Source: Litchfieldia alkalitelluris (GTDB lineage: Bacteria > Bacillota > Bacilli > Bacillales > Salisediminibacteriaceae). Taken from it: a DNA stretch of 64,000 bases. Below are positions 9,302 to 63,655 of this stretch, piece after piece. Made by a program: the position numbers and the translations under genes. Where the stretch lies: positions 378,835-442,834 of the forward strand of contig NZ_KZ119600.1 of the NCBI RefSeq assembly GCF_002153425.1, written 5' to 3'. How positions within the stretch are numbered: position 1 is the first letter of the stretch; each line of letters begins with the position of its first letter. Under the pieces are notes generated by a model. That model had not been told where the DNA came from and did no database searches. It worked only from the letters and a program-made list of their open reading frames with translations.

Positions 9302-11048
9302 TGAGGAAATTGGAATGACAGAGTTTAGCGGGAAAAAAAGAGTGTTGTTAATGGGAAATCCTAATGTGGGAAAAAGTGTCATCTTTTCTGCATTAACGAA
9401 TAAAGCAGTAATGACTGCAAACTATGCAGGTACAACAGTCTCAGCATATAAAGGAAACCTAATTGGCGTAGATGATATAGAAGTTATTGATGTGCCTGGT
9501 ATCTATTCCCTTGATGCAACTTCTGAAGCAGAAATGGCTGCAGTAAAAATGTATGAAGAAAAAACAGATTTAGTTGTTTGTGTGCTAGATGCAACGAACC
9601 TCGAGAGAAACTTAAAGCTTGGATTGGAATTAAGGAAGAAGCAATGTCCTGTTATCTATTTATTAAATATGTGTGACATTGCAGAGCGTAAAGGAATTAG
9701 GATCGATAAGAAAAAATTAGAAGAGCGTCTTCAAGCTCCAGTTATTCCAACTGTAGCAGTAAGACGTGCAGGTTTTCAAAGGCTGTTTCTATTAATTAAG
9801 AAGTATTTGAAAGATCCAGGTTCTTATCCATACAGTATAAATGCTAGTTTCACCACATCTATAGAGGAGATCTCTTATATTGCTGAAAGTGTACAGGAAA
9901 GGATAGAACCGCAGCCAAGCAAGATAGACCGATGGGAAAAGTGGACATTACAACCATTAACAGGGGTGCCAATTGCATTAATAGTTGTTATTTTGTCACT
10001 CGGATTTGTTGTTGGAGTTGGAAAAGCTATTCGTGCTGTCCTTCTTCTTCCATTGCTAAATAATTATTACGTTCCATTTGTGGAGAGTTTGGCTGGATTG
10101 CTAGTGAGTGATGAGTCTATGATCTATCAAATTTTAGTAGGAGAATTTGGTGTATTAATCAAAGGGATTGAATGGCCCTTTGCCCTCATCTTACCTTATG
10201 TCATCTTATTTTATATCGTTCTCTCAATATTAGAGGATAGTGGTTATCTGCCTAGATTAGGAGTTTTAATAGATGGCGTGTTTAAGAAAATAGGTTTACA
10301 TGGAGGTAGTGTCATTCCTGTAACAATGGGCTATGGGTGCGCAGTACCTGCAATCATTGGGACAAGAGCTTCTTCAAGTAGAAAAGAGCGTATTATCATC
10401 GCTTCTTTAGTGACCCTTGCAGTTCCTTGTATTGCTCAGACAGGGGCATTTATTGCTTTATTAGGAGATCACTCAATCCTATTATTATTTGCAATATTCC
10501 TTGTATCTTTCTTTATTATGTTTATTAGTGGAACGATCCTTAATAGGAAAATTTCAGGAGTTTTAGAACCGACGTTAATAGAAGTTCCGAACCTTCTAAT
10601 GCCTAGTAAACAAGCCCTTTGGAGAAAAGTATGGATGAGAACGAAACACTTTATGATAGAAGCTGAAATCCCAATGATTATAGGGATTCTTGTTGCTGCA
10701 TTAACAATTGAAACAGGTGTACTAAATTATTTTAGCGTGATACTAGAGCCAGTAGTAGTATCTTGGTTGGGTCTTCCTCCAGAAGCAAGTGTCGCTCTCG
10801 TATTAGGGGTGATCAGAAGGGAGCTTGCCGTTCTCCCACTCCTTGGAATGGACCTTACAGTTAACCAAATGTTTGTTGGAGCTCTTATTGCCTTATTATA
10901 TTTACCTTGTATGAGTGTGTTTTTTGTTTTGATAAAAGAATTTCGAATCCGCATAGCTGCAACGATAACTGCAGCCACAATTATATTAGCGTTTCTAGTC
11001 GGGGGATTAGTCAACCAATTACTTCGTTTATTTGGAGGGCTACTTTAA
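9288..11048 (+). CDS. feoB: FeoB-type ferrous iron transporter, divergent
   Basis: FeoB couples an N-terminal G domain to a membrane channel for Fe2+. The G domain shows GNPNVGKS (G1), DVPGIYSL (G3) and NMCD (G4). The membrane part has two gate regions; the first contains GYGCAVPAI with the conserved Cys and the second is centred on VPCIAQTG. At 586 residues it is shorter than most FeoB proteins, and the gate motifs deviate from the common GFGCNVPA form. Start at 9288 gives an MKCH N-terminus and overlaps feoA; ATG 9315, with GAGGA upstream, is an alternative. The next gene starts within its stop codon (TAATG). Confidence 0.85.
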   Translation: MKCHSEEIGMTEFSGKKRVLLMGNPNVGKSVIFSALTNKAVMTANYAGTTVSAYKGNLIGVDDIEVIDVPGIYSLDATSEAEMAAVKMYEEKTDLVVCVLDATNLERNLKLGLELRKKQCPVIYLLNMCDIAERKGIRIDKKKLEERLQAPVIPTVAVRRAGFQRLFLLIKKYLKDPGSYPYSINASFTTSIEEISYIAESVQERIEPQPSKIDRWEKWTLQPLTGVPIALIVVILSLGFVVGVGKAIRAVLLLPLLNNYYVPFVESLAGLLVSDESMIYQILVGEFGVLIKGIEWPFALILPYVILFYIVLSILEDSGYLPRLGVLIDGVFKKIGLHGGSVIPVTMGYGCAVPAIIGTRASSSRKERIIIASLVTLAVPCIAQTGAFIALLGDHSILLLFAIFLVSFFIMFISGTILNRKISGVLEPTLIEVPNLLMPSKQALWRKVWMRTKHFMIEAEIPMIIGILVAALTIETGVLNYFSVILEPVVVSWLGLPPEASVALVLGVIRRELAVLPLLGMDLTVNQMFVGALIALLYLPCMSVFFVLIKEFRIRIAATITAATIILAFLVGGLVNQLLRLFGGLL

Positions 11049-49013: not shown

Positions 49014-49423
49014 GTTCGCCCATGCTGGGCGAACAAAAGGACTGGATCATATTAAATCCAGCCCCAAAATTAATATTGACTTTTGATTGAAAAAACCGAT
49101 TGAATACATATTGGTCTGACTGCTGCTCTTCCCGCTTCCTTTACCGTTTGGTTACAAACTATTTAGTTCCCCACACTCTATCCCAATGCCTCAACACCCA
49201 TTTGCACCAATCCATCTAAAATAATGTATTGAGATGAGAAAACCTACGAGAAGGCTGTCATTTAAGGGTACCAAAGGTAAATCCTGAGTCTACTGAGCTC
49301 TTTAAGATAGACGTAAATAGCGAAAAAAGGAATATAACATTGTCCTAATTTATCCCTATTTTCCGAATGGAAAATCATGACAAAAACGCTCTTCATGCGT
49401 TATTTCAGGTATTAATAACTATT

Positions 49424-50889
49424 TATTGACTAGACTCTTGCAAAAAACATGTCATATCGAATTACGTCTATAATTTAGGATTTATTAGAACCTTTGTCGC
49501 ATTAGAAAAATAAAAAAGGACATTCTTACCTATTTGGTGAAATTTTGGTTACCACGCCAAATTCCCAAAGGAGAATGTCCAATATTATGGTAACCTTCTA
49601 TTCACCGATCGTCAACTTTATTTTAGCGTTGAAACTTTGTCTTTCGAAGCCACAAATGAATCACATTTTCACATTTGTTAATGGAATTATTTTGACCGAC
49701 GGAAGAATCAACGTTTCTCAAATTCGTCGATCCACTAATGAAAAAAGAGATCTTAGTTGCATGACTCGTTTTCTTAACGAGTCACCGTGGTGCCCGAACT
49801 ATGTGACCAACAAACGGATTCATTTTGAATCACATAAGGCAAAATCGAACCAGCACAAGTGATACAAGGCCAATCACATTTTTCATTATCGATGATTCCC
49901 AATGTAAGAAGGATCGTTCCACCAAGAAGATGGAAGGGTTGGATAACCACTTTTCTCATTCAGATGGAAAGGCCGTTTGGTCTCATTGTGTCGTGACAGC
50001 TCATGTCGTCAGTGACAATCACTCGTTTGCTTGGGATTTCCGTTCCTACTTTCGTGAAGAATATTGTCAAAATGAAGATATTCCTTTTAAAAGCAAAAAT
50101 GATCTGGCGATCGAGTTAATCAATTCCTATCCAGCCACGGAAAACGAACAGGTATATGTGTTGGTGGATAGTTGGTACACAAGTAAAAAGTTGATTGAAC
50201 ACTGTCTTCAAAGAGGATTTCATCTCATCGGTGGTCTTCGTGCGAACCGAAAGATTTATCCTCATGGAATTGGCATTAAAATCACTGATTTTGCGTCCAC
50301 TTATATAGAGTCATCTGATCTCCACTCCGTTACCGTGGATGATCATTCCTATAAGATTTACACTTATGAAGGAAATTTGAATGACACCGAGTACGCCAAA
50401 GTCCTTTTGTCTTGGGAAGACAAATTCGATTCGAGCAAAACGCCGTTTTGTATCCTTTGTACAGATAGTAGCCTGGATCTCGTAACCATCCTGCGCTATT
50501 ATAATGTGCGTTGGAACATCGAAACCGGATACCGTTATTTCAAAGAATTACTGGGCTTTGACGAATATCAGCTTCTTTCACGCAAAGGAATTGAACGCTT
50601 TTGGACCATTGAATTTATTACTTACAACTACTTGGAGTATCAACGGCAAGAATGGCAAAAGGAGATTCCGATGACCATTGGAGATGTCGTGCGACGTATT
50701 CGTAAGGATCATCTTGGTCAACTTGTCGTTTACACCTATGAACAAGCAATGGCTCAAAAGTCGCTTTTTGATATGTTGAAAGAACTAAAACTGGCAGCAT
50801 AACTGAATTTTTTTCAACTGTCAGTTCATACGCAATCCGTATGCCCTTTTTTAGGAATACTGATTAAAAATGCAAGAATCAAGTTGATT
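49424..50889 (+). mobile_element. IS4-type insertion sequence, left copy
   Basis: The segment 49433-50889 is nearly identical to 62194-63655; the coding part is the same and the upstream leader differs at a few positions, including a 5-bp length difference. GACTCTTGCA at the left end is mirrored by TGCAAGAATC at the right (one mismatch in the inverted repeat), and the similarity extends a few bases outward on both sides. I place the outer boundaries approximately and saw no clear target duplication. Confidence 0.85.
49575..50802 (+). pseudogene. IS4-type transposase, two overlapping frames
   Basis: Frame one (49575-49862) encodes the N-terminal part, including MTRFLNESPW. Frame two, shifted by +1, begins at or before the TTG at 49825 and encodes the DDE catalytic part: FFIIDDSQCKKDRSTKKMEG, LVDSWYTSKKLI with the second Asp, and NVRWNIETGYRYFKELLG with the Glu. 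IS4-type transposases are normally one frame, so the break looks like an inactivating one-base change, unless rare +1 shifting occurs. The same break is in the right copy. Confidence 0.75.
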
Positions 50890-50922
50890 AACTAAAAGTG
50901 ATGTAGAGAGGGGAATAAAATT

Positions 50923-51132
50923 ATGCAAACTCAAAAACCAACTCAACTTTCTTTATATGATTTCAATTTCTGTGAACCGGATCTAGAAGACAGCATCGAC
51001 AATTTATTTACTGAAAACGATATGATCCGTTTCGGAAAGGGTAGGAAAGGTTGGCAAGAGAATGATATAATGTCACTCATGGTTTTCTACTTTAGTATTG
51101 ATTTCGGTAACAAGCCTATATCTTTACATTAG
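50923..51132 (+). CDS. Short hypothetical protein
   Basis: A 69-codon frame with a GAGAGGGG site and start MQTQKPTQLSLYDFNF, then an acidic segment. No family is recognised. It may be the start of a gene cut off by the rearrangements around it, since the frame ends without any clear domain. Confidence 0.35.
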   Translation: MQTQKPTQLSLYDFNFCEPDLEDSIDNLFTENDMIRFGKGRKGWQENDIMSLMVFYFSIDFGNKPISLH

Positions 51133-51142
51133 GAGATTTTTT

Positions 51143-51223
51143 ATGCCTGTACAATGGTATATATCGCAAACCCCTTATTTTGGAAGTTGTTTGACTAGTG
51201 ATCTTAAGTACCAAAGCGCTTAG
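51143..51223 (+). CDS. Possible 26-residue peptide
   Basis: ATG at 51143 has TAGGAG seven to eight bases upstream and opens a 26-codon frame starting MPVQWYISQ and ending DLKYQSA. It has one Cys and no signal helix. It may equally be a gene fragment, like its neighbour. Confidence 0.25.
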   Translation: MPVQWYISQTPYFGSCLTSDLKYQSA

Positions 51224-51299
51224 TTTTAATTCTAATATTACGAATTTTCTTTAATATTTTATAATAACCTTACTGATGGGAAAGTCGTAGTGTAAAGGA

Positions 51300-52045
51300 C
51301 CATGTACCTTAATTTAAGTATCGCTTTTCCTTTAGTTCAATGTAAAGTTCATTGAGAAATTTCTTTTCACCGTAGACTTGGATATCTTCCAATGACAGCT
51401 CGTCTACACCTCCACTTCCTTTCTTTCGTTTCACTCTTTGCCATGCTTCCAATAAGATATCCGGTCGATAGATGTTATCATATAGAGCGTGAAAAAGACA
51501 TATCTTATTCCTTGGCACAAAGATATAATGTTTCCAGAGTTATTAAGATTTGACATTATTGGCGTAGTTTGCCATTTTCTTGACTGGCATTCACTGACTC
51601 TTACCTCCCTCACACATATGAATAAAGTAGGGCTCCTTCCCTGATAACGTTATGTTGTTGTTATCGTCATTGGTACTATGCCCCCTCCCACCATTCCACC
51701 ATTTCGTTTACACTTATATGTTTCTGCTTTACTTCCATAAAGGTAGTGATGAGTAAGGTATCCCCAGTTCCGTTAAACACTGAACAAACGTATCGTTCCC
51801 CATACCCCGAGGGATTATTCGGTGCTGTACTTCCAAGTTCTTCACACCTTCCGTTGGTTTTTGTCTATTGTCCCGAGGCTCAACTTCCCCTTTTCCTTTA
51901 GTTTAGTTTGCTAGCACTATTTACGAGTTACATTTTCACAGAGTTTCAATCTTAGGGTCTCTCCACCATTTGCCTGTCAACTACTGAGCGTCTTGGTACT
52001 TACTCAAATTGAAATTACACCAGTTAGCAATTAACGGTTTGCTGG
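51300..52045 (-). mobile_element. Truncated group II intron, minus strand
   Basis: Read on the minus strand, an RNA-like segment (GGTGGAGAGACCC, CTCGGGACAATAGAC, GTTTAACGGAACTGGGG) leads into a reverse transcriptase frame. At 51518-51309 it encodes AWQRVKRKKGSGGVDELSLE and ELKEKRYLN, the N-terminal RT-0/RT-1 part of an LtrA-type protein, and then stops. Everything downstream (palm, YADD, maturase, domains V-VI) is missing, so the element is dead. Confidence 0.72.
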
Positions 52046-52051
52046 TTACGT

Positions 52052-52092
52052 AAAAAAAATAGTAGTAAGAGATTATTGCTACTACTATTTTT
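52052..52092 (-). terminator. Terminator of the 52143-52271 peptide gene
   Basis: AAAATAGTAGTA and TACTACTATTTT form a perfect 12-bp stem with A/T runs on both sides, so it works in either direction. It lies 50 bp downstream of the peptide gene on the minus strand. Confidence 0.82.
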
Positions 52093-52142
52093 TCTCTCAT
52101 TATGTACTCTGATTTTTCACTTAAACAAAGAATAGAAATGAG

Positions 52143-52271
52143 CTAATGCTGTTCCGGTAAATCATTAAAAGGTTCAAGTTCGTAATAGTCACTAGCATAA
52201 TCATTAGTAATGTTTATGCTAAACACACTAATGAAACATAAAGTTAAGAAAATCTTTCGACATATATCCAT
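52143..52271 (-). CDS. Candidate secreted pheromone precursor (PapR-like)
   Basis: A 42-residue frame on the minus strand, too short for ordinary gene calling. It starts MDICRK, continues with a hydrophobic helix (IFLTLCFISVFSINI) and ends in a polar tail, NDYASDYYELEPFNDLPEQH. The layout, signal-like N-terminus plus short exported tail, is that of RNPP pheromone precursors, and NDLPEQH recalls PapR C-termini such as SDLPFEH. GTGAGGA lies seven bases before the ATG, and a strong terminator follows. The gene is divergent from a PlcR-type regulator 176 bp away. The function is inferred. Confidence 0.72.
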   Translation of the reverse strand: MDICRKIFLTLCFISVFSINITNDYASDYYELEPFNDLPEQH

Positions 52272-52447
52272 TTGGATTCCTCACTTCGTTTAAATTAATA
52301 TCTTGATAAAATCATAGAACAGATATATATAATGTCCAATACACAAAAATTAGCAATTTTCCCAATAAAAGATTAATAAGATGAACAACCTCCAGTTTTA
52401 TGGTAATATTAAAGTAGTATATTAATTTATTAATAGGTGAGGAAAAG

Positions 52448-53332
52448 ATGGATATAAAATATGGTTCCTTAATAAAGGATGCCCGGATTAAAAAAGGGGT
52501 ATCTCAAAAACAATTATCAGATAATATTTGTTCCCAGGGTCTTATTAGTCAAATTGAAATGAATCAAACAATCCCTACAGTAGATATATTTCTTAAAATT
52601 GCATCGAAACTAGAAATTAATCTTGATGTATTAACCTCAAAGAAAGTTGAATTTGATGATCAATATTATTTTTCAGAGTTTATTTTTTTAGTAAATAAGG
52701 CAAAACGTGACAGAAACTATAGAGAGATTCAATTGATCTTAAACGATGAGGAAAGTAACATAATGAAGAAAGGTAGAGATCAAGTTAAACAATTTTTCTA
52801 TTGGCATAAGGGAATTTGTTTTTTTCACCTATATGATGACTTTATAAAAGCGATTATGTATTACAAAAAAGCATTAGGAATAACAGGAAGTTCAATTGGA
52901 CAAGAGTATTTTATTGGTTTAGAATTAGAAATTCTTATTAGTATTGGGATTACATACAGTGCTATTAAAAATCAACCAAAAGCTATTCACCTATTTAAAA
53001 AGGTAAGTAACTCTTTGAGTAAATCTTCAGATATAAACAACAATAAAAAGTTAGAACTTAAGTTGCTTTATAATCTTTCAAAAGCCCACGGTTTAAATAA
53101 AGATTTTTGTCTAGCCCTTAAATATGCCAAGAAAGGAAGAAATATATGTATTTCACATGGGTATTTATACTTGCTAGGTGAATTTAATTATCAAATAGGG
53201 ATTAATTTAATTGAAACAAAGGAAATTGAAAAAGGGGTGGAATACTTGGAACAAGCTATCACCGTTTTTGATATTGAAGGTAAGAAGGTAATGAGTGAAT
53301 TTGTAAATAATAAAATTGAAAAACTTGAATAA
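52448..53332 (+). CDS. PlcR/RNPP-type peptide-responsive regulator
   Basis: A 294-residue protein with an XRE helix-turn-helix (residues 6-62; KKGVSQKQLSDNICSQGLISQIE) and a C-terminal array of TPR-like helices (for example FIKAIMYYKKALGI and PKAIHLFKKVSNSL). Size and plan equal PlcR, which binds a reimported PapR heptapeptide in its TPR groove and then activates transcription. A candidate peptide gene is divergent. AGGTGAGG precedes the ATG. The nearest functional operon downstream is the peptide cluster at 56.3-61.9 kb. Rgg or NprR relatives are the alternatives. Confidence 0.85.
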   Translation: MDIKYGSLIKDARIKKGVSQKQLSDNICSQGLISQIEMNQTIPTVDIFLKIASKLEINLDVLTSKKVEFDDQYYFSEFIFLVNKAKRDRNYREIQLILNDEESNIMKKGRDQVKQFFYWHKGICFFHLYDDFIKAIMYYKKALGITGSSIGQEYFIGLELEILISIGITYSAIKNQPKAIHLFKKVSNSLSKSSDINNNKKLELKLLYNLSKAHGLNKDFCLALKYAKKGRNICISHGYLYLLGEFNYQIGINLIETKEIEKGVEYLEQAITVFDIEGKKVMSEFVNNKIEKLE

Positions 53333-53352
53333 TATATCTTAAGGAGAAGAAT

Positions 53353-53386
53353 AAAAATCTAGCATAAATGTTTGTGCTAGATTTTT
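53353..53386 (+). terminator. Terminator after the TPR regulator
   Basis: AAAAATCTAGCA and TGCTAGATTTTT form a perfect 12-bp stem with a 10-nt loop. Confidence 0.88.
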
Positions 53387-53387
53387 A

Positions 53388-54710
53388 TGCGCTTGGCAAC
53401 GCATCGAACTAATGGGTGAAAGTACCTAACACGCCGAAATGGCGGAAGTGTATAGCAGGTAGTGCATGTCCGTGAGGAATTGTGTGGAGTACCTAAAGGC
53501 AAATCTCGGAACAGACGACTAACCATCATGTTGGCTGACAGAATCGGAGGATCTTGCAAAGGAGGGGGAAGTCCATTGCCACAAGAAGATTCTGTAAGTT
53601 ATGAGGAATTGGTTCGAGGAATTTGATGACGTGACCCAAGGAGATCTCATCATCTCCACTATCTGGTGGTAACTTTCAAACAAGTCCGTGTTGGGCAAGT
53701 TGGGATTACGGGTGGTGAGAAGTCAGAGCAGTGGATATTAGTGAATAGGATCGTCGGAAAAGTTGTAATGTCGAGTGACTTGATGCGAAGCCTGTCTGCC
53801 CATGAAAGAAAAGTAATTCAATTTAGGAAGACGTCATGTGCCAAGCAGAAGCCAATGACGTAGAGCCTAAGAACTGGGGTCGAATAGTAAGTAGACAGTT
53901 TGGGCGGAGTACTTTAGGTATAACTCGGAAAATGCCGTGTGCTAGTCATCCGAGAGAGCCAAGGGAAGGATAAGAACATGAGTGAGCGATTATATCAGAG
54001 GAGTTTTCGTGATGGAGTAAAGTCTACACAAAAGAGAAAATGGTATAGCTTAATAGATAAGGTATGGGCTATATCCAACATGGTATGGAGGAAGCGTTCA
54101 AAGAGGTAAAACGCAATCGAGGATCTGCAGGAGTAGATGGAGTTTCTATCAAAACTTTTGAGCATTGGGGGAAGGACAATGTACAAGTTCTTCAACGTGA
54201 ATTAAAAGAAAAGATTTATAGACCGAGACCTGTAAAGCGTGTATTTATTCCAATACCATATAGAACGAAAAGACCTTTAGGAATACCTAACGTTAGAGGC
54301 CGTGTTGTTCAGGCAGCTGTACGTCGCATTATAGAGCCGATTTTCGAAGACAAATTTTTGGACTGTAGTTTCGGATTCAGACCGAATAAAAGTGTACATA
54401 TGGCTTTAGAGAAAATCCAAAAGGATTTAATGGATGGATTTGTGCACGTAATTGACGATGATCTAAAGGCCTACTTTGATACAATCCCACAGGATAAAAG
54501 GCGGAGTCATCAGTCCATGAGAAGAAAGTGGAAAGGAGATCTCCCTAGTTTGCGTATGGATAAATGGAGAAGCTCTTTGTCAACCCCAGTACATACTGCT
54601 TTATATAATGAATGGTTTGTAGAAATCGGTCTTATCTCACTTGTGAAGCTTTATAATGATCATCATCTCCAGCGGGGATAATCATGGAGGAGCCGTATGC
54701 GATGACCTGT
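53388..54710 (+). mobile_element. Degenerate group II intron, plus strand
   Basis: The 5' RNA part has typical group II intron character (GGGTGAAAGTACC, GCATGTCCGTGAGGAA, GAACAGACGACTAACC) and starts directly after the regulator's terminator stem, a site favoured by some bacterial introns. The encoded reverse transcriptase is broken (next entry), and the 3' end keeps only GGAGGAGCCGTATGCG before similarity fades. Confidence 0.7.
53979..54681 (+). pseudogene. Group II intron reverse transcriptase/maturase, deleted
   Basis: The frame begins MSERLYQRSFRDGVK, shifts near 54080 next to a TATGG duplication, and continues with EEAFKEVKRNRGSAGVDGVS, RPLGIPNVRGRVVQ, CSFGFRPNKSVHMAL and DDDLKAYFDTI (RT domains 0-3). 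After QDK it jumps straight into a C-terminal LYNEWFVEIGLISLVKLYNDH segment; the YADD motif and most of the maturase domain are lost. Confidence 0.78.
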
Positions 54711-54797
54711 CAGACTGTCCAACAAATAATAACCTTCATTTTAACATGAGAATGGATTTCCTTTGTCGAATTAATATATCAAGGGAGATGAGCTCAT

Positions 54798-55958
54798 ATG
54801 CCATTTATAGAAGTTGAAGATAGACATTAAATTCATTATTGTCAAATACGGGAGACTTTGTAGAAGAAGACAATCCTGTCCGACTAATTGATGCTTAAAT
54901 CGATAGTTTGGCCCTAGAAGAATTGGGTTTTCAAGTGTTTTCAGGTACCGAAGCCGGGCAAAAACCATACAGGCGTGAAGATCTTCTTAAGCTCTAACTT
55001 TACTGTTTTATGAACGGTAACCGTTTCTCTCACAAAGATGGAAAAAGAAACGACAAGGAACATAGGAATAATGTGGTTAATTGGAAAGCTACAGCCGGAT
55101 CACGGCACATTATCTGCTTTTATGAAGAATAACAAAATGGCTATAAAAAAGCTGTCTAAGAATTTTACCTTGATGTTAAAAGGTTTTGAGTGATTGATGG
55201 TCAACTTGTCGCAATTAATGGTACAAAACTAAAAGCAAACTGCTGTAAAAACCATCATTTCAATGCCTATATTGTCAATAAGAAACTAGATCATATCGAT
55301 GAGAAAATCAACTATGTATTACTGATCCGGATGCCAAATCCATGAAAAACAACGGGAAACATGAAGTTTATTTTTAATGTTCAAACAGCGGTGGACAGCA
55401 AATACAAACTGATCGTGGACTGCGATACGGTAATGATGTTAACGATCAAGGCTAGCTATCTAATATGGTGAAAAAAACAAAGCAAGTTTCCCATGATCAA
55501 AAAACCAAAATCCTTGCTGATAAGGGCTATTATAATTGCTTTGAAATTATTGAAGTTGTCGACGGAAGCACCGAACTCTTAATTAAGCAAAAAAAAGGAA
55601 AGAAAAACAAAGTAGCAAGCGGATTTGATAAAGAGAACTTTGAATATGATACCATTAACGATCAATATATTTGCCCGTTGGGTTATGAGTTACCTTTTAA
55701 ATGGAATGGAAAACAAGATGGGAAAGAGTATAAGCGTTACACTTTCGAGTCTTACGATATTTTCTGTCAAAAAGAGTCTTGCACTTCTGCCAAAAACGGA
55801 AGGGCGGTAATCTCGGCTATACATACTTTTTAACACGAGGGTTGGCCTCAGTAGGTACTGAGACCACTCTAATTTTTCTTGCTTATAATCTCAAGAGAAT
55901 GATCAAAATAAAGGGATTGAAGGAGCTCGTAGGTCTCTTCAGAAGCCTATATGCATAA
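54798..55958 (+). pseudogene. IS1182-type transposase remnant
   Basis: Reading across several stops and shifts recovers NTGDFVEEDNPVRLIDA, GTEAGQKPYRREDLLKL, the intact stretch 55465-55833 with KTKILADKGYYNCFEI and YICPLGYELPF, and the C-terminal end NLKRMIKIKGLKELVGLFRSLYA. These are IS1182-family transposase parts. No full frame survives. Confidence 0.75.
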
Positions 55959-56220
55959 CACTTCTTTGAGCAAAGTGCATAAACCCATGTTTTCAAGTGT
56001 ACTCCGAATTCAATTGTTAGACTGCCTGATGTCCGGATCACCGAGAGGTGCATGAATAATTTCATTCGCCTACTCTATTTTATTGAGACTATAAATCTTA
56101 CAATACTTAAAGAGATTATAAATATTAATATATTATTTCTTTATTTAATAATAAGAAGTGTAAGTGTTTATACATTGGCTTTTCGTAATGGAAACTTAAG
56201 AAACTGTCTATTTCGGAGGT

Positions 56221-56249
56221 TTAATGAAGGATGTGTTATAGCCTATAAT
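56221..56249 (+). promoter_or_regulatory. Candidate promoter of the peptide operon
   Basis: A perfect -10 TATAAT (56244-56249) lies 17 bp after a poor -35 TTAATG (56221-56226). The predicted start is about 35 bp before the precursor ATG. A weak -35 fits dependence on an activator. The 55959-56220 stretch is A/T-rich without a supported gene. Confidence 0.5.
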
Positions 56250-56257
56250 TCATTGTA

Positions 56258-56401
56258 TAGGAGAGGGAATCGTAGAGGGAGGTGATAACATGAAATTCGA
56301 ATTAAAAGATTCAGTTGCTTTAACTGAGAATTCTAAGTCTTCCGACACAGCTTGCTAATATTTGATATGTATATTTATATTTAATGTTCCCCCCTCTCCT
56401 A
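56258..56401 (+). other. Long-range inverted repeat around the precursor gene
   Basis: TAGGAGAGGG (56258-56267) is exactly complementary to CCCTCTCCTA (56392-56401), extended by one flanking A.T pair. The stem would enclose the ribosome binding site and the whole 22-codon frame and end just before the site for the next gene. Possible roles are message stability or uneven expression. Confidence 0.5.
56290..56358 (+). CDS. 22-residue candidate precursor peptide ending in Cys
   Basis: The frame reads MKFELKDSVALTE followed by NSKSSDTAC and a stop. It has one of the best ribosome binding sites in the window, GGGAGGTGAT six to seven bases before the ATG, and is followed 73 bp later by the carrier protein gene. 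There is no signal helix. The only Cys is the last residue. In context with a MccB/ThiF-like enzyme, which acts on the C-terminal carboxylate of short peptides, it is the likely substrate: MKFELKDSVAL could be the recognition part and SSDTAC the modified end. It is not similar to any precursor I know. Confidence 0.7.
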   Translation: MKFELKDSVALTENSKSSDTAC

Positions 56402-56431
56402 TTAATATCTTTATAAGGAGGTAATGATATT

Positions 56432-56713
56432 TTGATTTCCCTGGAGATCCTAAAAGAGAGAATTATCGATATACTAAAATTACAAATAGACCCATCTTCT
56501 ATATCATTAAAAACTAAATTAATTATGTCAGATCAGTTAGAAATTGATTCATTAGATTTGGTTGACTTAATAGTAACTTTAGAAAGTGAGTTTGACATCG
56601 ATTTAACTGATTTAGATAATAAAAACCTTTATACAGTTGGGGATTTACTTGATACCATTAATAGTAAACTTGAAGATAGGAGTACAGGTTTATATGATGA
56701 TACCAAAATTTAA
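56432..56713 (+). CDS. Acyl carrier protein
   Basis: A 93-residue carrier protein with the phosphopantetheine site EIDSLDLVDL (Ser40) and a four-helix plan; the acidic helix II after DSL is typical. TTG is the start codon, ten bases after AAGGAGG; an ATG nearer that site is out of frame. Its last 20 nt overlap the next gene. As a dedicated carrier in a peptide operon it may present a fatty acyl group to the acyltransferase or hold the activated peptide. Confidence 0.88.
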   Translation: MISLEILKERIIDILKLQIDPSSISLKTKLIMSDQLEIDSLDLVDLIVTLESEFDIDLTDLDNKNLYTVGDLLDTINSKLEDRSTGLYDDTKI

Positions 56714-57830
56714 GAGTACTATAGAAGTAAGAGTTGCTCATAATGATATACATTTTATTGATAATATCAAAAGCACTATAAAGATATTTGAAAGTGAAGA
56801 AAAAGTAGTTGAATTAATAAAGGAAATTGACGGCAGAAATAGTGAAGATGAAATCTATTATAAACTAAAACAAAACTTTGAAGATATTACTTTAGAAGAT
56901 GTCAAAGAAACTTTAGATTCTATGCTTAAATTTGGTCTGATTTCTGATGAATATAAGAATAGTCATCAATATTCCAATCCTATTTTTGAAAAATGGAATA
57001 GACAAATTCTGTTTTGGGATGCCTATGGTCAAGAAGGGATTTCAGGTATCGATATACAAGAAAAACTCTTTAACTCAAATGTATTAATTGTAGGGGTTGG
57101 GGGACTAGGTTCGTGGGTTGGTATGTATTTAACTCAAATTGGTTTAGGGAACATTACAATAATTGATTATGATCATGTAGAAAAAAGTAACTTAAACAGG
57201 CAAGTTCTGTTTTGTGAAAAAGATGTTGGCAAACTTAAAACTGTTGCTGCGAAAGAATCATTATTAAATATAAACTCTTCTATAAATGTTACTACCTATA
57301 ATACTAAGATAGACGATTACATTGTATTAGATGAATATCTAGATGGGATAGATTTTGTTATAAATTGTGCGGATGAACCAAATGTTTTTGATACGGGAAT
57401 GATTGTTGGAAAGGCATGTATGGAAAGAAGTATCCCTCACATTATAGGTGGTGGGTATAATCATCATATAGGAATGTTAGGTCCCACTGTAATACCATAT
57501 AAATCTCCATGTTGGGGATGTTATGAACTCCAACTTAAACTTCCCGAGTGGAGCAGTTATGAAGTGATAAAAAACAGAACCAAAGGGGAAGCGCCAAGTC
57601 TAAATATTTTGACAAGTCACATTGCAAACATTCAATCTTTTGAAATTATTAAAGTACTTACAGGAATAACTCCCCCCACAATGATGGGAAAAAAAGGAGA
57701 AGTCAACTTAAATACTTTAGATACTTCTTATGAAGTATTTAGAAGGCAACCGAATTGTAAAATGTGCGGGAAAGGAAATACATCAGGCAAAAGTGGTAGG
57801 GAAAGGATGTTTACAAATGAAAGAATTTAA
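56694..57830 (+). CDS. MccB/ThiF-type peptide-adenylating enzyme
   Basis: A 378-residue E1-like enzyme. Residues about 8-90 form a small winged-helix-like domain resembling the RRE/peptide clamp of MccB. The E1 core has WNRQILFW (100-108), VGVGGLGSW for ATP (133-141), IIDYDHVEKSNLNRQ (156-170), KLKT (180-183), NCADEP (224-229) and two zinc pairs, CWGC (273-276) and CKMC (355-358). MccB adenylates the C-terminus of a heptapeptide; here the 22-residue peptide two genes upstream is the obvious candidate. Start 56694 has AGGAG eleven bases upstream. It overlaps the next gene by 14 nt. Confidence 0.87.
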   Translation: MMIPKFKSTIEVRVAHNDIHFIDNIKSTIKIFESEEKVVELIKEIDGRNSEDEIYYKLKQNFEDITLEDVKETLDSMLKFGLISDEYKNSHQYSNPIFEKWNRQILFWDAYGQEGISGIDIQEKLFNSNVLIVGVGGLGSWVGMYLTQIGLGNITIIDYDHVEKSNLNRQVLFCEKDVGKLKTVAAKESLLNINSSINVTTYNTKIDDYIVLDEYLDGIDFVINCADEPNVFDTGMIVGKACMERSIPHIIGGGYNHHIGMLGPTVIPYKSPCWGCYELQLKLPEWSSYEVIKNRTKGEAPSLNILTSHIANIQSFEIIKVLTGITPPTMMGKKGEVNLNTLDTSYEVFRRQPNCKMCGKGNTSGKSGRERMFTNERI

Positions 57831-58806
57831 TACAAGGGAGTCAGACTTTTCAACGGGCTATTTTTCTGTAGATAATTTGATCGATAACTATGAATTATCT
57901 AAAAAGCTGAACAGTGTATTAACTTCGGACGAGCTTTTCTGTCACTTCCAAAGAATACAAAAGAGTGAAAATGATTTATTAAGTAATTACTATTTAGAAT
58001 TTTTCAACATAGTTTATGAAAGAATGTATGACACAGACTTGTTTGATAAAGGTTACGATTTAACAGAGTTAGCACGTTTAAATACAGAGTTGCATAAACA
58101 AAAATCATATTTACTTCAATACTATTTGTTAAAACTTACCGAAGAAGAGTTTATAAAAAGTAATTTAAATATTAATGGGTTTAAGTCATTAAAAAAAGTG
58201 TTAGATTCTAATTCAGGAGCTGTATTGTCCTTTTATCACTGGGGTATATTTCAATTGATGATTTTTGCTTTAATAGTGGCTTTTGAAAAACCCGTAGCTC
58301 TATTTGCTAGTAGGGAAGCAACTGAATATCAGCAAAAAGTTTTGGAAATCTATTTTCCTTCAAAGAAACATTTATTTAAAACTCTTCCTATTAGCTTTTC
58401 TTCTATTCGAGAATCTATAAACTTAATAAAACAAGGATATCTTGTCTGTATTTTGCCAGAGTTGAGTGGTTGGGCTGATTCTATACCAATAAAGAATAAG
58501 AAGAACTTTATGGGTTCTAGCGTGGTTACACCTGAAGGAGCCGCTACTTTAAGTGCATATGGAAAAGTTCCTTTATTTAGAGGTTATTTGGAAATATCAA
58601 ATGAAAAAAAAATTTTAATTGATTTAAAACTTATCTCTCCTAAAGTTGAGTTATCAAAGGAAAATATTAGAGAAAACACCTTAAACATTTGGAATGATTT
58701 AGAAAAATTATGCTATCAAAAACCAGCCATGTGGGGTGGCTGGGAGATTTTTGATAGAATTCAAGGGAAAGCTACTGAGGAGAATTTATCCAATGCATAT
58801 AAGTGA
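57817..58806 (+). CDS. LpxL/HtrB-like acyltransferase
   Basis: A 329-residue protein whose C-terminal two thirds follow the lipid A acyltransferase (LABLAT) family: LSFYHWGIFQL (His141), LPELSGWAD, KNFMGSSVVTPEGAATLSAYGKVPLFRGYLE. The family uses acyl-ACP. The catalytic H-x4-D/E motif reads H-x4-Q here, so the acidic partner is missing. A helical N-terminal segment of about 110 residues is not recognised. Bacilli lack lipid A, so the acceptor must differ; the cluster's peptide is the candidate. GGAAAGGA lies ten bases before the ATG; 14-nt overlaps on both sides. Confidence 0.75.
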   Translation: MKEFNTRESDFSTGYFSVDNLIDNYELSKKLNSVLTSDELFCHFQRIQKSENDLLSNYYLEFFNIVYERMYDTDLFDKGYDLTELARLNTELHKQKSYLLQYYLLKLTEEEFIKSNLNINGFKSLKKVLDSNSGAVLSFYHWGIFQLMIFALIVAFEKPVALFASREATEYQQKVLEIYFPSKKHLFKTLPISFSSIRESINLIKQGYLVCILPELSGWADSIPIKNKKNFMGSSVVTPEGAATLSAYGKVPLFRGYLEISNEKKILIDLKLISPKVELSKENIRENTLNIWNDLEKLCYQKPAMWGGWEIFDRIQGKATEENLSNAYK

Positions 58807-60046
58807 GTTTTTCCATTTGTTTAAGAGTATTGCTTTAAGAAATATTATTTTGTGTTACAGTATCTCAAGAATGGCTGTAACGATAAATATAGTAGTTACC
58901 TATTGGTTTGTTTGGGAATTAACAAATTCAGCTACCGTGTTGGGATTTTTGGGGTCTATTACAGTTGTTGCAACTTTAACTGGTTTGTTTTCCGGTATTA
59001 TTGTAGACCGATATAATAAATTTAAATTACTTATTATATCAGATATCTCGAGGTTTCTAATCCTTTTACTTGTACCTATAGTTTATTTTAATGATCTGGT
59101 ATCATGGGGATATTTTAGTATTATGCTATTACTAATGAATGTCGTCAGTCAATTTTATTCCCCAACAATTAGGTCCATTTTATTAGAGAGAGCTAACGAA
59201 AAAAATCTATCATCAATTAACAGTAGTTTGTTTATTATTGAACAAGTTTCTTTAATAATGGGAGCATCAATTGCAGGGATCTTGTTTATTCCATTAGGAA
59301 TTACCAATGCTTATTTATTAACTGCCACACTTTTTATTTTTTCATTTCTATTAATACTATTTACAAAGAAAACTATGTCGGATAAAAGTTCTATCAATAC
59401 TACTTCAACGAAAGAAAACTCGAGAACTATACTAACTGATTTCAAAGAAACCTATATCTTTATATTTAAAACACCTGTATTAGCTCATTCAACTCCACTT
59501 ATTTTATTTTTGTTTTTCTCTTTTGCTCCGGTGTTTATTTTATTAAGTGTCTGGTCAGACGAAGTATTAGGAAAAGGAGCATTTGGATACAGTATGATGG
59601 AAATTGCGTATCCAATAGGGATGGCAATAGGTGGAGTATGTTCTAACTATTTTTATAAAAAATTTAGTACTAGAACATTAATTACCTTTTGCTTGATTTT
59701 TGCTGGTATCTCAACACTTTTCTTTTCTTTTTCAAGAGAATTAGTACTTTCTCTCTTTTGTCTTATGGTATTAGGTTCTTGCTTAGCAGTCGCTAACGTA
59801 TCATTAGTTAATATTCAAACAAAGGTAGTGCCAGAGTATTTAAGAGGGAGATTTTTTGCTACAACTCAAACCTTTATTAGTTTAGTTCTTCCCTTAGGTT
59901 ATTCCTTATCTGGTTACTTAACAAGCTTTTTTGGCATCACATCAATATTTATATTTATCAGTGTATCTTTTTTACTTTCGTCGTTGATATTTTTTAATCT
60001 AAATTCCATCAAGGTTTACGAGAAAAGTCTACAATTGAGTAATTAA
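58793..60046 (+). CDS. MFS exporter
   Basis: A 417-residue transporter with twelve predicted helices and the MFS loop GIIVDRYNKFKLLI between helices 2 and 3 (normally G-x-x-x-D-R-x-x-R/K). It is most like the macrolide/peptide-efflux branch of the superfamily. TGAGGAGA precedes the ATG at 58793, inside the acyltransferase gene. In this operon it probably exports the finished product or protects the producer. The substrate cannot be read from the sequence. Confidence 0.87.
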   Translation: MHISEFFHLFKSIALRNIILCYSISRMAVTINIVVTYWFVWELTNSATVLGFLGSITVVATLTGLFSGIIVDRYNKFKLLIISDISRFLILLLVPIVYFNDLVSWGYFSIMLLLMNVVSQFYSPTIRSILLERANEKNLSSINSSLFIIEQVSLIMGASIAGILFIPLGITNAYLLTATLFIFSFLLILFTKKTMSDKSSINTTSTKENSRTILTDFKETYIFIFKTPVLAHSTPLILFLFFSFAPVFILLSVWSDEVLGKGAFGYSMMEIAYPIGMAIGGVCSNYFYKKFSTRTLITFCLIFAGISTLFFSFSRELVLSLFCLMVLGSCLAVANVSLVNIQTKVVPEYLRGRFFATTQTFISLVLPLGYSLSGYLTSFFGITSIFIFISVSFLLSSLIFFNLNSIKVYEKSLQLSN

Positions 60047-60068
60047 TTTTCAAAAGGTGGCTTAGAAT

Positions 60069-61850
60069 ATGCTCTCAAAAATGAACTTGATTAGTGATGA
60101 AATTAATTTTGATAAATTCTCAGAGAATATTTATTATATGGTTGAAAAGGATGGTATCAATTGTCTATACTCATATAATTTAAGTACAAAAGAAATAAAA
60201 AGCGAGTATGTACCTTCTAGTCCTTGGAAGTTAATTAATTATTATAAGCGAACTGGTGAAGATACATTACTTCTTTTAATGCGACAAAAAAAAACAACAC
60301 ATTCAGAACTATGGATGCAGAATTGTGAAGGCGAATTAAAATTTCTGGGACCGGAAGAAAGTGAAATATGCAATCAAGGAATCTATTTAGAAAAAGTAGC
60401 AGGAGTTATTTCAAATATAGTCAATAAAATAAGTGGAGAAAGTTATTTAAGGTATATAGATTTATCATCTGGAATGGAAGAAGATTTAATAAAACATGAT
60501 GGACTAATCTCGATTCAGACTATTTCCCCTTGCGGTAATTATGTAGTTATTATTTTTTCTGAAAAAGGATTCAAAGTAAAGATAGGGGTATTAGATCTTA
60601 GAAATAGAAAATTGATTTTCAATTCTTCTTTTTCGCTTCGAGTTGAAAGTGTTGTATGGCATTTTAATAATGAGGGTTTTTATATATTAACTAATGAATT
60701 AACTGAATATATATCAATATATTATGTGAGTTTAGACAATTTTTTGAAGGGTAACTTTCTTAATAGTATGGAGGAAGTCTATGTCGGGAAAAATGACATA
60801 GAACAGTTAGTTTCCTTAAAAGATGGGGTAATATTCACATCAAACACCAATGGTTATAGTACGATAAGTCATCTTAATTCATCTAGTAAGATTGAGGAAA
60901 TATACACAAACATAAAAGGAGTAATTACGGGATTTTCACTTTCAAATGACAATAGGAAATTAGCTTTTAAAATAAGTACTATAAATTCTCCAGGTGATAT
61001 ATGTATATATAATCTAAACTCTAAATGTATTGATAGATTAGGATTAAATAAAAGTAAAACATTTTATGAGATTTCATTATTACAAAAATCTCTTACATCT
61101 ACAGGGCCTTATTTAAATAATTACTCATCTAATATTATCGCAAAGAAAAAATATCCTGCTATAATACTCTTGCATGGCGGCCCACATAAACAAGATAGAC
61201 CTAGCTTTAATCCGTTAAAGAAACTCTTAGTTAAACAAGGGTTTGTAGTAATCTGTCCTAATATATCAGGAAGTACTGGATATGGAAAAACATACGAGGA
61301 AAGTATTTTAGGTGGATGGGGGGGGCAGGATCTAGATGAGATTAAACAAATCTATAACTGGTTACAGAAACAAGAATGGGTTATAAAAGATAGAATCTTT
61401 TTATGTGGTTTTAGCTACGGTGCCTATTTAACATTATTGGCTGTATCTAAATTAGAATGTAAATTCTATAAGGCTATAGCAATATCTGGTCCAGTAAATT
61501 TGTTAGATTTTATTAATAATATGCCTTTAGAAACACAGAATATTTTACAAAAGAATGTAGGAGATTCTTCATCTGAAGATAAAAGGAAGTATTTACTATC
61601 TAATTCTCCGAGTACTTATATAACTTCAATATCTTGTCCAATTCTAATAGCTCATGGTAGTCAAGATGACAAGATTAATAGAGACTCAATATTTAAATAT
61701 GTTAAGAAAGCTATTAGTTTTGGCAAAGATATGACATATTATGAAGTAGAGGGAGAAGGACATTCACTAAGTTACTCTAATACTGATATCAATAGTTTAT
61801 TAACCGATTGTTTAAAGTTTATGGATAGTAATAAATATTCAAATACCTAA
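60069..61850 (+). CDS. S9-family (prolyl oligopeptidase-type) peptidase
   Basis: A 593-residue protein: an N-terminal beta-propeller-like region (to about residue 340) and a C-terminal alpha/beta hydrolase. The catalytic triad is Ser449 in CGFSYGAYL, Asp533 in HGSQDDKI and His565 in GEGHSLS; HGGPH forms the oxyanion hole. No signal peptide is seen, so it is cytosolic. Such enzymes cut short peptides. It could trim the precursor or degrade product for self-protection, as the unrelated MccF does for microcin C. AAAGGTGG precedes the ATG. Last gene of the operon. Confidence 0.88.
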   Translation: MLSKMNLISDEINFDKFSENIYYMVEKDGINCLYSYNLSTKEIKSEYVPSSPWKLINYYKRTGEDTLLLLMRQKKTTHSELWMQNCEGELKFLGPEESEICNQGIYLEKVAGVISNIVNKISGESYLRYIDLSSGMEEDLIKHDGLISIQTISPCGNYVVIIFSEKGFKVKIGVLDLRNRKLIFNSSFSLRVESVVWHFNNEGFYILTNELTEYISIYYVSLDNFLKGNFLNSMEEVYVGKNDIEQLVSLKDGVIFTSNTNGYSTISHLNSSSKIEEIYTNIKGVITGFSLSNDNRKLAFKISTINSPGDICIYNLNSKCIDRLGLNKSKTFYEISLLQKSLTSTGPYLNNYSSNIIAKKKYPAIILLHGGPHKQDRPSFNPLKKLLVKQGFVVICPNISGSTGYGKTYEESILGGWGGQDLDEIKQIYNWLQKQEWVIKDRIFLCGFSYGAYLTLLAVSKLECKFYKAIAISGPVNLLDFINNMPLETQNILQKNVGDSSSEDKRKYLLSNSPSTYITSISCPILIAHGSQDDKINRDSIFKYVKKAISFGKDMTYYEVEGEGHSLSYSNTDINSLLTDCLKFMDSNKYSNT

Positions 61851-61965
61851 AAGGGCTGTTAGGAAAAAAAGTTCCTGACCCAATGGCTTTGTGCGATTTG
61901 AAGAATCAAATTAAAAATATGTTTTATTTTTATATTTGTATTTAATTGTAAAATAAAAAGACGGC

Positions 61966-62001
61966 GAACAGGGTTTATTTCTACCTTGTTCTCATTTTTT
62001 T
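61966..62001 (+). terminator. Terminator of the peptide operon
   Basis: GAACAGGG and CCTTGTTC pair around a 10-nt loop, followed by TCA and seven T residues. The rest of 61851-62184 is A/T-rich and shows no supported gene. Confidence 0.82.
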
Positions 62002-62184
62002 ATTAATGTTATATTATACGACTATTTGTAATATGTTTATAAACTGCGACGGTTCCGACAAACAAATTTTCTGGATTGTGAACTTTAGAATTACTACTTA
62101 TTATTACTGTACTGATAGTAATGTAGCAATAATTATTATTTTTATACCGTTTATAATAAAGATAATTACTTTTATTTTTAATTT

Positions 62185-63655
62185 AATTTACTTGACTCTT
62201 GCAAAAAACATGTCATATCGAATTGCGTCTATAATTTAGGCTTTATTAGAACCTTTGTCGCATTAGAAAAATAAAAAAGGACATTCCTACCTTTTGGGTG
62301 AAATATAAGGTTACCACAACCAAATCCCACAAAAAGGAGAATGTCCAATATTATGGTAACCTTCTATTCGCCGATCGTCAACTTTATTTTAGCGTTGAAA
62401 CTTTGTCTTTCGAAGCCACAAATGAATCACATTTTCACATTTGTTAATGGAATTATTTTGACCGACGGAAGAATCAACGTTTCTCAAATTCGTCGATCCA
62501 CTAATGAAAAAAGAGATCTTAGTTGCATGACTCGTTTTCTTAACGAGTCACCGTGGTGCCCGAACTATGTGACCAACAAACGGATTCATTTTGAATCACA
62601 TAAGGCAAAATCGAACCAGCACAAGTGATACAAGGCCAATCACATTTTTCATTATCGATGATTCCCAATGTAAGAAGGATCGTTCCACCAAGAAGATGGA
62701 AGGGTTGGATAACCACTTTTCTCATTCAGATGGAAAGGCCGTTTGGTCTCATTGTGTCGTGACAGCTCATGTCGTCAGTGACAATCACTCGTTTGCTTGG
62801 GATTTCCGTTCCTACTTTCGTGAAGAATATTGTCAAAATGAAGATATTCCTTTTAAAAGCAAAAATGATCTGGCGATCGAGTTAATCAATTCCTATCCAG
62901 CCACGGAAAACGAACAGGTATATGTGTTGGTGGATAGTTGGTACACAAGTAAAAAGTTGATTGAACACTGTCTTCAAAGAGGATTTCATCTCATCGGTGG
63001 TCTTCGTGCGAACCGAAAGATTTATCCTCATGGAATTGGCATTAAAATCACTGATTTTGCGTCCACTTATATAGAGTCATCTGATCTCCACTCCGTTACC
63101 GTGGATGATCATTCCTATAAGATTTACACTTATGAAGGAAATTTGAATGACACCGAGTACGCCAAAGTCCTTTTGTCTTGGGAAGACAAATTCGATTCGA
63201 GCAAAACGCCGTTTTGTATCCTTTGTACAGATAGTAGCCTGGATCTCGTAACCATCCTGCGCTATTATAATGTGCGTTGGAACATCGAAACCGGATACCG
63301 TTATTTCAAAGAATTACTGGGCTTTGACGAATATCAGCTTCTTTCACGCAAAGGAATTGAACGCTTTTGGACCATTGAATTTATTACTTACAACTACTTG
63401 GAGTATCAACGGCAAGAATGGCAAAAGGAGATTCCGATGACCATTGGAGATGTCGTGCGACGTATTCGTAAGGATCATCTTGGTCAACTTGTCGTTTACA
63501 CCTATGAACAAGCAATGGCTCAAAAGTCGCTTTTTGATATGTTGAAAGAACTAAAACTGGCAGCATAACTGAATTTTTTTCAACTGTCAGTTCATACGCA
63601 ATCCGTATGCCCTTTTTTAGGAATACTGATTAAAAATGCAAGAATCAAGTTGATT
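62185..63655 (+). mobile_element. IS4-type insertion sequence, right copy
   Basis: Same element and same orientation as 49424-50889. Its left end ACTTGACTCTTGCA is a better inverted match to the right end (TGCAAGAATCAAGT) than that of the left copy. The two copies frame the regulator and the peptide operon. No target duplication was found by eye. Confidence 0.85.
62341..63568 (+). pseudogene. IS4-type transposase, two overlapping frames
   Basis: Frame one is 62341-62628, frame two runs from the TTG at 62591 to 63568. Both translations are identical to those of the left copy, including the +1 offset after HKAKSNQHK. The catalytic DDE residues lie in frame two. Confidence 0.75.

Follow-up and report, generated by a model that had tools for sequence, protein, structure and literature searches.

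Introduction

ThiF-like adenylyltransferases (TLATs) act in the biosynthesis of ribosomally synthesized and post-translationally modified peptides (RiPPs), and their characterized products comprise a phosphoramidate, pantocin, a thiolactone, an imide and an indolylamide, according to the accessible text of two publications (PMC12250964, PMC12150305). Here, an operon of Litchfieldia alkalitelluris is compared with these systems; it lies in a stretch of 64,000 nt (contig NZ_KZ119600.1, positions 378,835-442,834 of the forward strand, assembly GCF_002153425.1), hereafter the window, and contains, in this order, a 22-codon peptide frame and genes for an acyl carrier protein (ACP), an E1 enzyme, an acyltransferase homologue of the LABLAT type, a major facilitator superfamily (MFS) transporter and an S9 peptidase. 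The operon shares with microcin C a short precursor, an E1 of the same fold fused to a RiPP recognition element (RRE) and an MFS pump; however, the microcin C precursor MccA ends in Asn, the product is a peptide-nucleotide, and the Escherichia coli control locus (L084) contains neither a LABLAT nor an ACP. The GRC-type RiPPs (GrcB, Streptococcus pneumoniae) also combine a ThiF-like enzyme carrying an RRE with a Cys-ended precursor, but their clusters include a stand-alone RRE besides two radical SAM enzymes, and Glu35 is joined to Cys39 (accessible text of PMC12250964). IndF and EnfB (enterofaecin) are likewise RRE-ThiF enzymes that adenylate the precursor C-terminus, after which a macrocycle follows, whereas their precursors terminate in hydrophobic motifs that contain Trp (NWYFI, WIVI) and the accessible text on them mentions no acyltransferase or ACP.

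The acyltransferase has the fold of LpxM and PatA, although these act on lipid A or mannosides, and LpxM has the acid of the HX4[D/E] motif, which is replaced by Gln, Met or Ser in the proteins described here. The product type proposed below, a fatty-acylated ribosomal peptide, is represented by the selidamides, nostolysamides, lipolanthines and goadvionins in the accessible accounts of these compounds. Such lipidated RiPPs use GNAT-type transferases or polyketide synthase/fatty-acid synthase partners, in contrast to the LABLAT and TLAT found here. The words 'acyltransferase', 'acyl carrier' and 'lipid' are absent from the main text, as accessible, of the TLAT review PMC12250964, and no TLAT or ThiF cluster with an ACP, an acyltransferase or LpxL is described by title or abstract start in the open literature, a scope that excludes subscription papers and supplements. 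An earlier note on this DNA had stated that no described pathway has this gene set, which stands within the open literature (most subscription papers being outside the scope). According to PMC12150305, a supplementary figure shows further unannotated clusters, and the subclass may therefore already have been noticed elsewhere.

In this study, the genes, the peptide and their relatives in other genomes were analyzed. The preferred reading, which is given a probability of about 0.5, is that the operon is a RiPP pathway of a previously undescribed TLAT subclass combining adenylation of a Cys, acylation by the LABLAT, and export or protection by the MFS transporter.

Results

Operon organization

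The operon comprises the following features (window coordinates).

56257-56402, + strand: predicted RNA hairpin (z score -2.4) before the ACP gene, with the peptide gene inside its 11-bp outer stem
56290-56358, + strand: precursor peptide gene, ATG start, 22 residues (MKFELKDSVALTENSKSSDTAC), C-terminal Cys
56432-56713, + strand: acyl carrier protein, TTG start, PF00550 at 25.9 bits (cut-off 20.8), phosphopantetheine motif EIDSLDLVDL
56694-57830, + strand: RRE-fused E1, a ThiF-like adenylyltransferase of the MccB/PaaA type, PF00899 at 1.3e-50
57817-58806, + strand: LABLAT acyltransferase homologue of predicted LpxL/LpxM/PatA fold, PF03279 at 18.6 bits (E 1.1e-3)
58793-60046, + strand: MFS exporter, perhaps also conferring self-immunity, to judge from remnant loci that retain the pump
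60069-61850, + strand: S9 family peptidase, PF00326 at 3.4e-29
61966-61991, + strand: terminator-like hairpin with a T run, end of the operon

The peptide gene at 56290-56358 is preceded by GGGAGGTGA. Overlaps join the ACP and E1 genes (20 nt), the E1 and LABLAT genes (14 nt) and the LABLAT and MFS genes (14 nt), while 73 nt separate the peptide and ACP genes and 22 nt the MFS and S9 genes. The six genes and their overlaps are thus as the earlier note had given them, and the terminator that it had claimed is borne out by the hairpin at 61966-61991. The promoter-like element that it ascribed to the operon is indistinguishable from chance: the region contains 41 promoter-like sites against 35.7 +/- 5.7 in shuffled sequence, so a distinctive promoter was rejected.

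The precursor peptide

Oceanobacillus sp. J11TS1 (contig L033) carries all six genes in the order of the window, including a homologous frame of 22 residues at 9592-9660, MKFEIEETVELVEASKSSDTAC. When the two peptide frames are compared codon by codon, four codons are identical, 12 differ synonymously (stop included) and seven differ non-synonymously. All seven non-synonymous differences are confined to codons 5-14; throughout codons 15-22 and the stop (SKSSDTAC*), 9/9 codons are changed and every change is synonymous. From this synonymous-only change it follows that the short frame is, on the codon evidence, a coding and selected precursor with a conserved core, SKSSDTAC, behind a freer, variable leader.

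Eight complete E1 + LABLAT loci were counted (the window, L033, L004, L034, L066, L067, L068 and L069), and frames of 10-60 residues led by a Shine-Dalgarno (SD) sequence, with any end residue allowed, were sought in the 800 nt that precede the first biosynthetic gene. The nearest such frame has a C-terminal Cys in all eight loci, the ends being DTAC, DTAC, NGSC (two copies), MGSC, TGSC, CNNNC, CDANC and KKC; L034, L067 and L068 have an additional, more distant SD-led frame without this residue. The controls were 16 E1 loci without a LABLAT, ten of which have a candidate frame at the same limits and none a Cys-ended one (0/10). When the lower limit is set at six residues, 11 controls have a candidate (0/11 Cys-ended), the one gained being the E. 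coli control L084 with its true microcin C precursor, MRTGNAN, so the method detects a known precursor. As background, five of the 159 distinct SD-led frames across the window are Cys-ended. No exact p-value is given because the eight loci represent four groups in the E1 tree with five core types. On a second Lactiplantibacillus plantarum plasmid (L032), outside the eight, an overlapping SD-led ORF in another reading frame lies closer than the Cys-ended one.

The suggestion that the short Cys-ended frame is the likely substrate of the E1 is therefore supported, such a frame recurring beside the E1 in other genomes, and homologous clusters lacking a conserved short frame, which would have spoken against it, were not encountered among the eight loci. 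Of the two neighbours expected to recur with the E1, the Cys-ended frame did so throughout (8/8), the ACP in part (4/8). The possibility of a chance neighbourhood, with the peptide a regulatory or non-functional short open reading frame (ORF) and the genes unrelated cargo, would suit a region that is an island flanked by insertion sequences (ISs); it is contradicted by the identical gene order in Oceanobacillus, by the synonymous-only core and by the Cys-ended frame of the eight loci, and is regarded as extremely improbable.

At position -4 from the C-terminal Cys, the eight peptides have S, S, K, K, K, C, C and D, that is, Ser in the window, Lys in the GSC group, Cys in the CNNNC/CDANC group and Asp in L069. 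The presence of a nucleophile there in 7/8 loci would agree with a pathway of cyclization only, in which the E1 makes a C-terminal thiolactone, lactone or lactam macrocycle and the LABLAT transfers a small acyl group or has some other accessory role. GrcB, IndF and EnfB each form a ring from the adenylate (PMC12250964, PMC12150305) and GrcA likewise ends in Cys (PMC12250964), as described in the accessible text of these sources. Such a pathway is nevertheless considered unlikely, since an acyltransferase of lipid-type fold in eight clusters and an ACP in four would be left unexplained.

A hairpin either lies between the peptide and the next gene or encloses the peptide in all seven loci that were folded (L066 was left out), with z scores of -3.6 to -7.3 in five loci, -2.4 in the window and -2.1 in L033. 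The L033 fold resembles that of the window in enclosing the peptide gene, and in the five other loci a stronger hairpin follows the peptide. Hairpins near a precursor commonly raise precursor levels over enzyme levels, which may be their function here.

The E1 enzyme

The structure model of the window E1 (mean pLDDT 83.4) is nearest to MccB (4.9e-26) and then to PaaA (2.2e-22), the full-length model aligning with them over 363-384 and 300-349 columns, respectively, and the PF00899 match spans residues 102-356. As modelled, a ThiF-fold domain follows an RRE-like domain at the N-terminus, as in the TLAT RiPPs, and the earlier assignment of the protein to the MccB type is supported by this structure comparison. 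Lys182, Asp227 and the glycine motif GxGGxGS are kept in 8/8 loci, and Arg169 and the two Cys pairs of a presumed zinc site in 7/8, L069 being the exception for both. Judged by spacing, Arg169, Lys182 and Asp227 would correspond to Arg167, Lys180 and Asp225 of EnfB, the residues named in PMC12250964 (accessible text). In the E1 tree, seven of the system E1s fall into three groups on one open fork, and that of L069, on a long branch, joins another group; a common origin of all eight is not demonstrated by this tree, which would imply at least two changes.

The earlier term 'microcin-C-like' therefore holds for the enzyme and not for the product, the C-terminal Asn of MccA being absent from all eight loci. 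A variant of microcin C, in which the E1 would build a nucleotide phosphoramidate on the C-terminal residue for other enzymes to decorate, could draw on the structural proximity to MccB and on the layout of MccA, MccB and MFS genes in common with the control L084. It is very unlikely, since the phosphoramidate nitrogen derives from the C-terminal Asn (PMC12250964, accessible text), a residue found there in 0/8 loci.

A side observation concerns tandem E1-E1 pairs that follow a frame of ~60 residues with a Cys-rich RSxCCTRVCT motif and a G-V-x-Q-Y end (L035 8207, L036 7975, L037 3803 and L039 8413), in Lachnospiraceae, Veillonella, Leptotrichiaceae and Ignatzschineria. A tandem pair is also present in Pseudomonas (L040) and Acinetobacter (L086), in which the ~60-residue frame was not seen. 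These loci resemble a further RiPP family of the ThiF type, one that has two E1s.

The acyltransferase

The PF03279 match of the window LABLAT is below the curated cut-off of 22.3 bits, and the protein was placed by family profile together with fold. Among the seven LABLATs scanned (L004 was not among them), all match PF03279 at E<=0.01, the best at 9.8e-15. In the model (mean pLDDT 85.2, pTM 0.85), 14/14 PDB matches at E<=1e-3 are LpxM or PatA, so that by profile and predicted fold the protein belongs to the LpxL/LABLAT family.

The window protein has His141, a P-E/D motif at 214-215 and Gln in place of the Asp/Glu of HX4[D/E]. Across the eight loci the His is invariant, as is Glu or Asp after the conserved Pro214, and the acid of HX4[D/E] is replaced by Gln, Met or Ser in every case. 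The title of the LpxM entry 5knk names a catalytic substitution of E127, and in the profile alignment wild-type and 5knk LpxM differ at the fifth residue after the His, the site of the acid missing here. Of the generic LABLATs, five (L020-L024) retain HX4E and six (L074-L077, L080 and L083) have Phe at this site; since ordinary LABLATs of Bacilli can also lack the acid, its loss alone does not imply a dead enzyme.

The acyl carrier protein

A dedicated ACP with a DSLD motif is encoded in four of the eight loci (window, L033, L067 and L068) and was not found in L004, L034, L066 or L069 with a hidden Markov model (HMM) built from the four ACPs, in fetched stretches of 9.2-16.5 kb. All four exceed the Pfam cut-off for phosphopantetheine domains; in NCBIfam they match general fatty-acid-type ACP models best, none of them reaching a curated cut-off. 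The ACP and E1 genes overlap by 20 nt in the window, by 8 nt in L067 and by 20 nt in L068 (first start codon); in L033, the ACP gene ends 16 nt upstream of the E1 gene.

This arrangement is the strongest point in favour of an alternative in which the E1 adenylates the Cys carboxylate and loads the peptide onto the phosphopantetheine thiol of the ACP, and the LABLAT passes the peptidyl group to a hydroxyl or amine acceptor. E1-type enzymes form thioesters in other pathways, and LABLATs take thioester donors. The absence of an ACP by HMM from the fetched stretches of four of the eight loci and the fatty-acid ACP models that the ACPs match best both weigh against it, and the scheme is held to be improbable; the specific proposition that the E1 loads a ribosomal peptide onto the ACP via the peptide's C-terminal Cys, the LABLAT being a peptidyl transferase, is correspondingly doubtful. 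If true, it would directly bridge RiPP and carrier-protein biosynthesis, with a ribosomal peptide entering thiotemplate chemistry. For the second step, where the earlier note had offered both models, the occurrence of an ACP in only half of the clusters favours lipidation over an obligatory peptidyl-ACP intermediate, and the ACP is read as the source of the acyl group, encoded within some clusters and drawn from the cell's own supply in others.

The MFS pump and the peptidases

An MFS gene is present in all eight loci. On two L. plantarum remnant plasmids (L150 and L152), the MFS gene is full length and adjoins a C-terminal E1 fragment; the records contain no LABLAT, and no SD-led frame ending in Cys was found within 800 nt upstream. 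On a third (L151), an IS256 element separates the E1 fragment from a shorter MFS gene. The retention of the pump on remnant plasmids suggests that the MFS protein confers immunity and that the product is harmful to neighbours. Separately, lactobacillus plasmids or contigs L041 and L043 carry a C-terminal E1 fragment and an MFS gene, as if synthesis had been lost and the pump retained.

The S9 peptidase occurs in 2/8 loci (window and L033), with no similar protein found in the other six; L069 has an M3 peptidase in its place. Among solved structures, the S9 protein is closest to an 'amino acyl peptidase' (1.9e-32) and to acylamino-acid-releasing enzymes; this agrees with an acylated peptide as substrate but is no proof of it, and the role of the protein may be leader removal, or immunity or turnover.

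Distribution and mobility

Besides Oceanobacillus, two L. plantarum plasmids carry a LABLAT homologue next to genes for an E1 homologue and an MFS protein, and further complete loci were found in Streptococcus gallolyticus (L034), on a plasmid-like contig of the Streptococcus family with Rep3 and Mob_Pre genes (L066), in the family of Lactobacillus garii (L067) and in the order of the window (L068 and L069). LABLAT matches occur in 3/295 genomes of the Streptococcus family, 3/397 of the lactobacillus family and 16/397 of the window's order, and complete E1-LABLAT pairs among these number two, one (L050 left out) and three (window included), respectively; the survey covered two of the three Lactobacillaceae matches (all but L050) and, at class level, 12 of 36 matching genomes. 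Within the genus of the window, the only match in nine genomes is the window's own genome.

A search of genome contigs with the window E1 as a single sequence found no relative. A two-sequence E1 alignment recovered 11 loci there: the complete pairs L033 and L034, the remnant L042, the fragments L041 and L043, and six E1s without a LABLAT. The LABLAT search of viral contigs and the search with E1 alignment A1 gave no match, and a broader alignment (A8) gave 60 loci with matched ranges resembling generic ThiF/E1 cores. No E1 was found in 35 stretches around weak LABLAT matches (L020-L024, L026-L030, L053-L065, L070, L071 and L074-L083), which cover mostly 1.5 kb per side and include some pairs from one place; most of these weak matches look like ordinary acyltransferases. 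The remnant L042 (Streptococcus ovuberis), outside the eight, has two tandem GSC-ended peptide genes at 9768-9952 together with a truncated E1 gene, a truncated LABLAT gene and an ORF of 410 residues that resembles an MFS protein.

The system is rare, yet occurs in bacteria that are only distantly related, and it seems to be mobile because three complete loci are plasmid-borne or lie on a plasmid-like contig and the window copy lies between near-identical IS copies. These copies and a candidate regulator are located as follows.

49421-50889, + strand: left IS copy of a composite-transposon-like island, sharing 98.8% identity with the right copy over 1475 bp
52448-53332, + strand: RNPP-family (peptide-sensing) regulator with helix-turn-helix (HTH) and TPR domains, HTH_3 at 9e-11 and RNPP_C at 1e-10
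62181-63655, + strand: right IS copy of the island, in the same orientation as the left copy

The two copies flanking the operon are 12.8 kb apart and delimit the island 49421-63655, which lies downstream of pcrA-ligA-camS-like genes. The island also contains a group II intron match (RF02001, 46.1 bits) at 53466-54681, with a short reverse transcriptase ORF downstream.

Three loci have HTH regulator genes close to the operon, namely the window (3 kb upstream of it), L067 and L069; RNPP- or TPR-type sensing domains are present in two, and the RNPP protein at 52448-53332 is a possible regulator of the window operon. None of the five flanking ORFs scanned in L034, L066 and L068 is a regulator (the family-profile scan covered neither L004 nor L033). 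In L067, an SD-led hydrophobic frame of 11 residues (MVIVVLPVLSN) at 5796 directly follows the HTH regulator gene and is reminiscent of the SHP pheromones of Rgg regulators.

Discussion

The system combines an RRE-ThiF architecture, the ATP/Mg residues of an adenylation site and an adjacent selected short precursor gene, and is filed here among the TLAT RiPPs rather than with microcin C or GRC. Microcin C was rejected since Cys, not Asn, ends the peptides in 8/8 loci (MRTGNAN in control L084). GRC was rejected since no radical SAM gene was found among the operon genes of the window or the relatives' ORFs that were scanned (part of their flanking ORFs), and an acidic residue stands at -4 in only 1/8 loci (Asp, L069), with Glu in none.

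The preferred pathway, lipidation of an adenylated peptide, would begin with binding of the leader (about residues 1-14) by the N-terminal RRE of the E1, which would then adenylate the C-terminal Cys carboxylate; this step is likely because carboxylate adenylation is common to the characterized TLATs (PMC12150305, PMC12250964, accessible text). The acyl-adenylate would most likely be resolved within the peptide, for instance by the nucleophile at -4, giving a five-residue ring of the size of the autoinducing peptides (AIPs) of staphylococci, whose five-residue thiolactones are mentioned in the accessible text of PMC12250964. The LABLAT would acylate the invariant Cys thiol or a nearby Lys with a fatty-acyl group carried by an ACP, either the dedicated one or, in clusters that encode none, AcpP of the cell. 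A peptidase (S9 in the window, M3 in L069) would remove the leader or degrade stray product, and the MFS protein would export the product and confer self-immunity. This product is probably a lipopeptide with an antibacterial or signalling role, controlled by a regulator that senses peptides.

Several observations weigh against this reading. The C-terminal Cys is the sole residue at a fixed place that is common to all of the peptides, and the -4 nucleophile pattern spans four E1 groups, fails in L069 (Asp) and is not significant alone. The acid of HX4[D/E] is absent throughout the eight LABLATs, so that the ordinary acyltransferase mechanism is not assured. The overlap of the ACP and E1 genes (8-20 nt in three of the four ACP loci) could hint at a direct partnership between the E1 and the ACP. 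The best NCBIfam match of the S9 protein is the dipeptidyl-peptidase Dpp5 (below cut-off), not an acyl-peptidase. Furthermore, a plasmid of L. plantarum 2025 (L031, 1957-4415; counted neither among the eight loci nor among the 16 controls) has a full-length E1 and an MFS gene with no LABLAT in the record, no Cys-ended frame upstream and an IS3 element directly upstream.

TLAT enzymes are a growing source of peptide chemistry, which now includes phosphoramidate, imide, thiolactone and indolylamide products. A subclass whose TLAT is accompanied by an acyltransferase of lipid type, and often by an ACP, predicts a modification that is new and possibly a lipopeptide of a new kind. The precursor, the likely core boundary and the enzyme set are defined here, and the C-terminal Cys offers a handle for genome mining.

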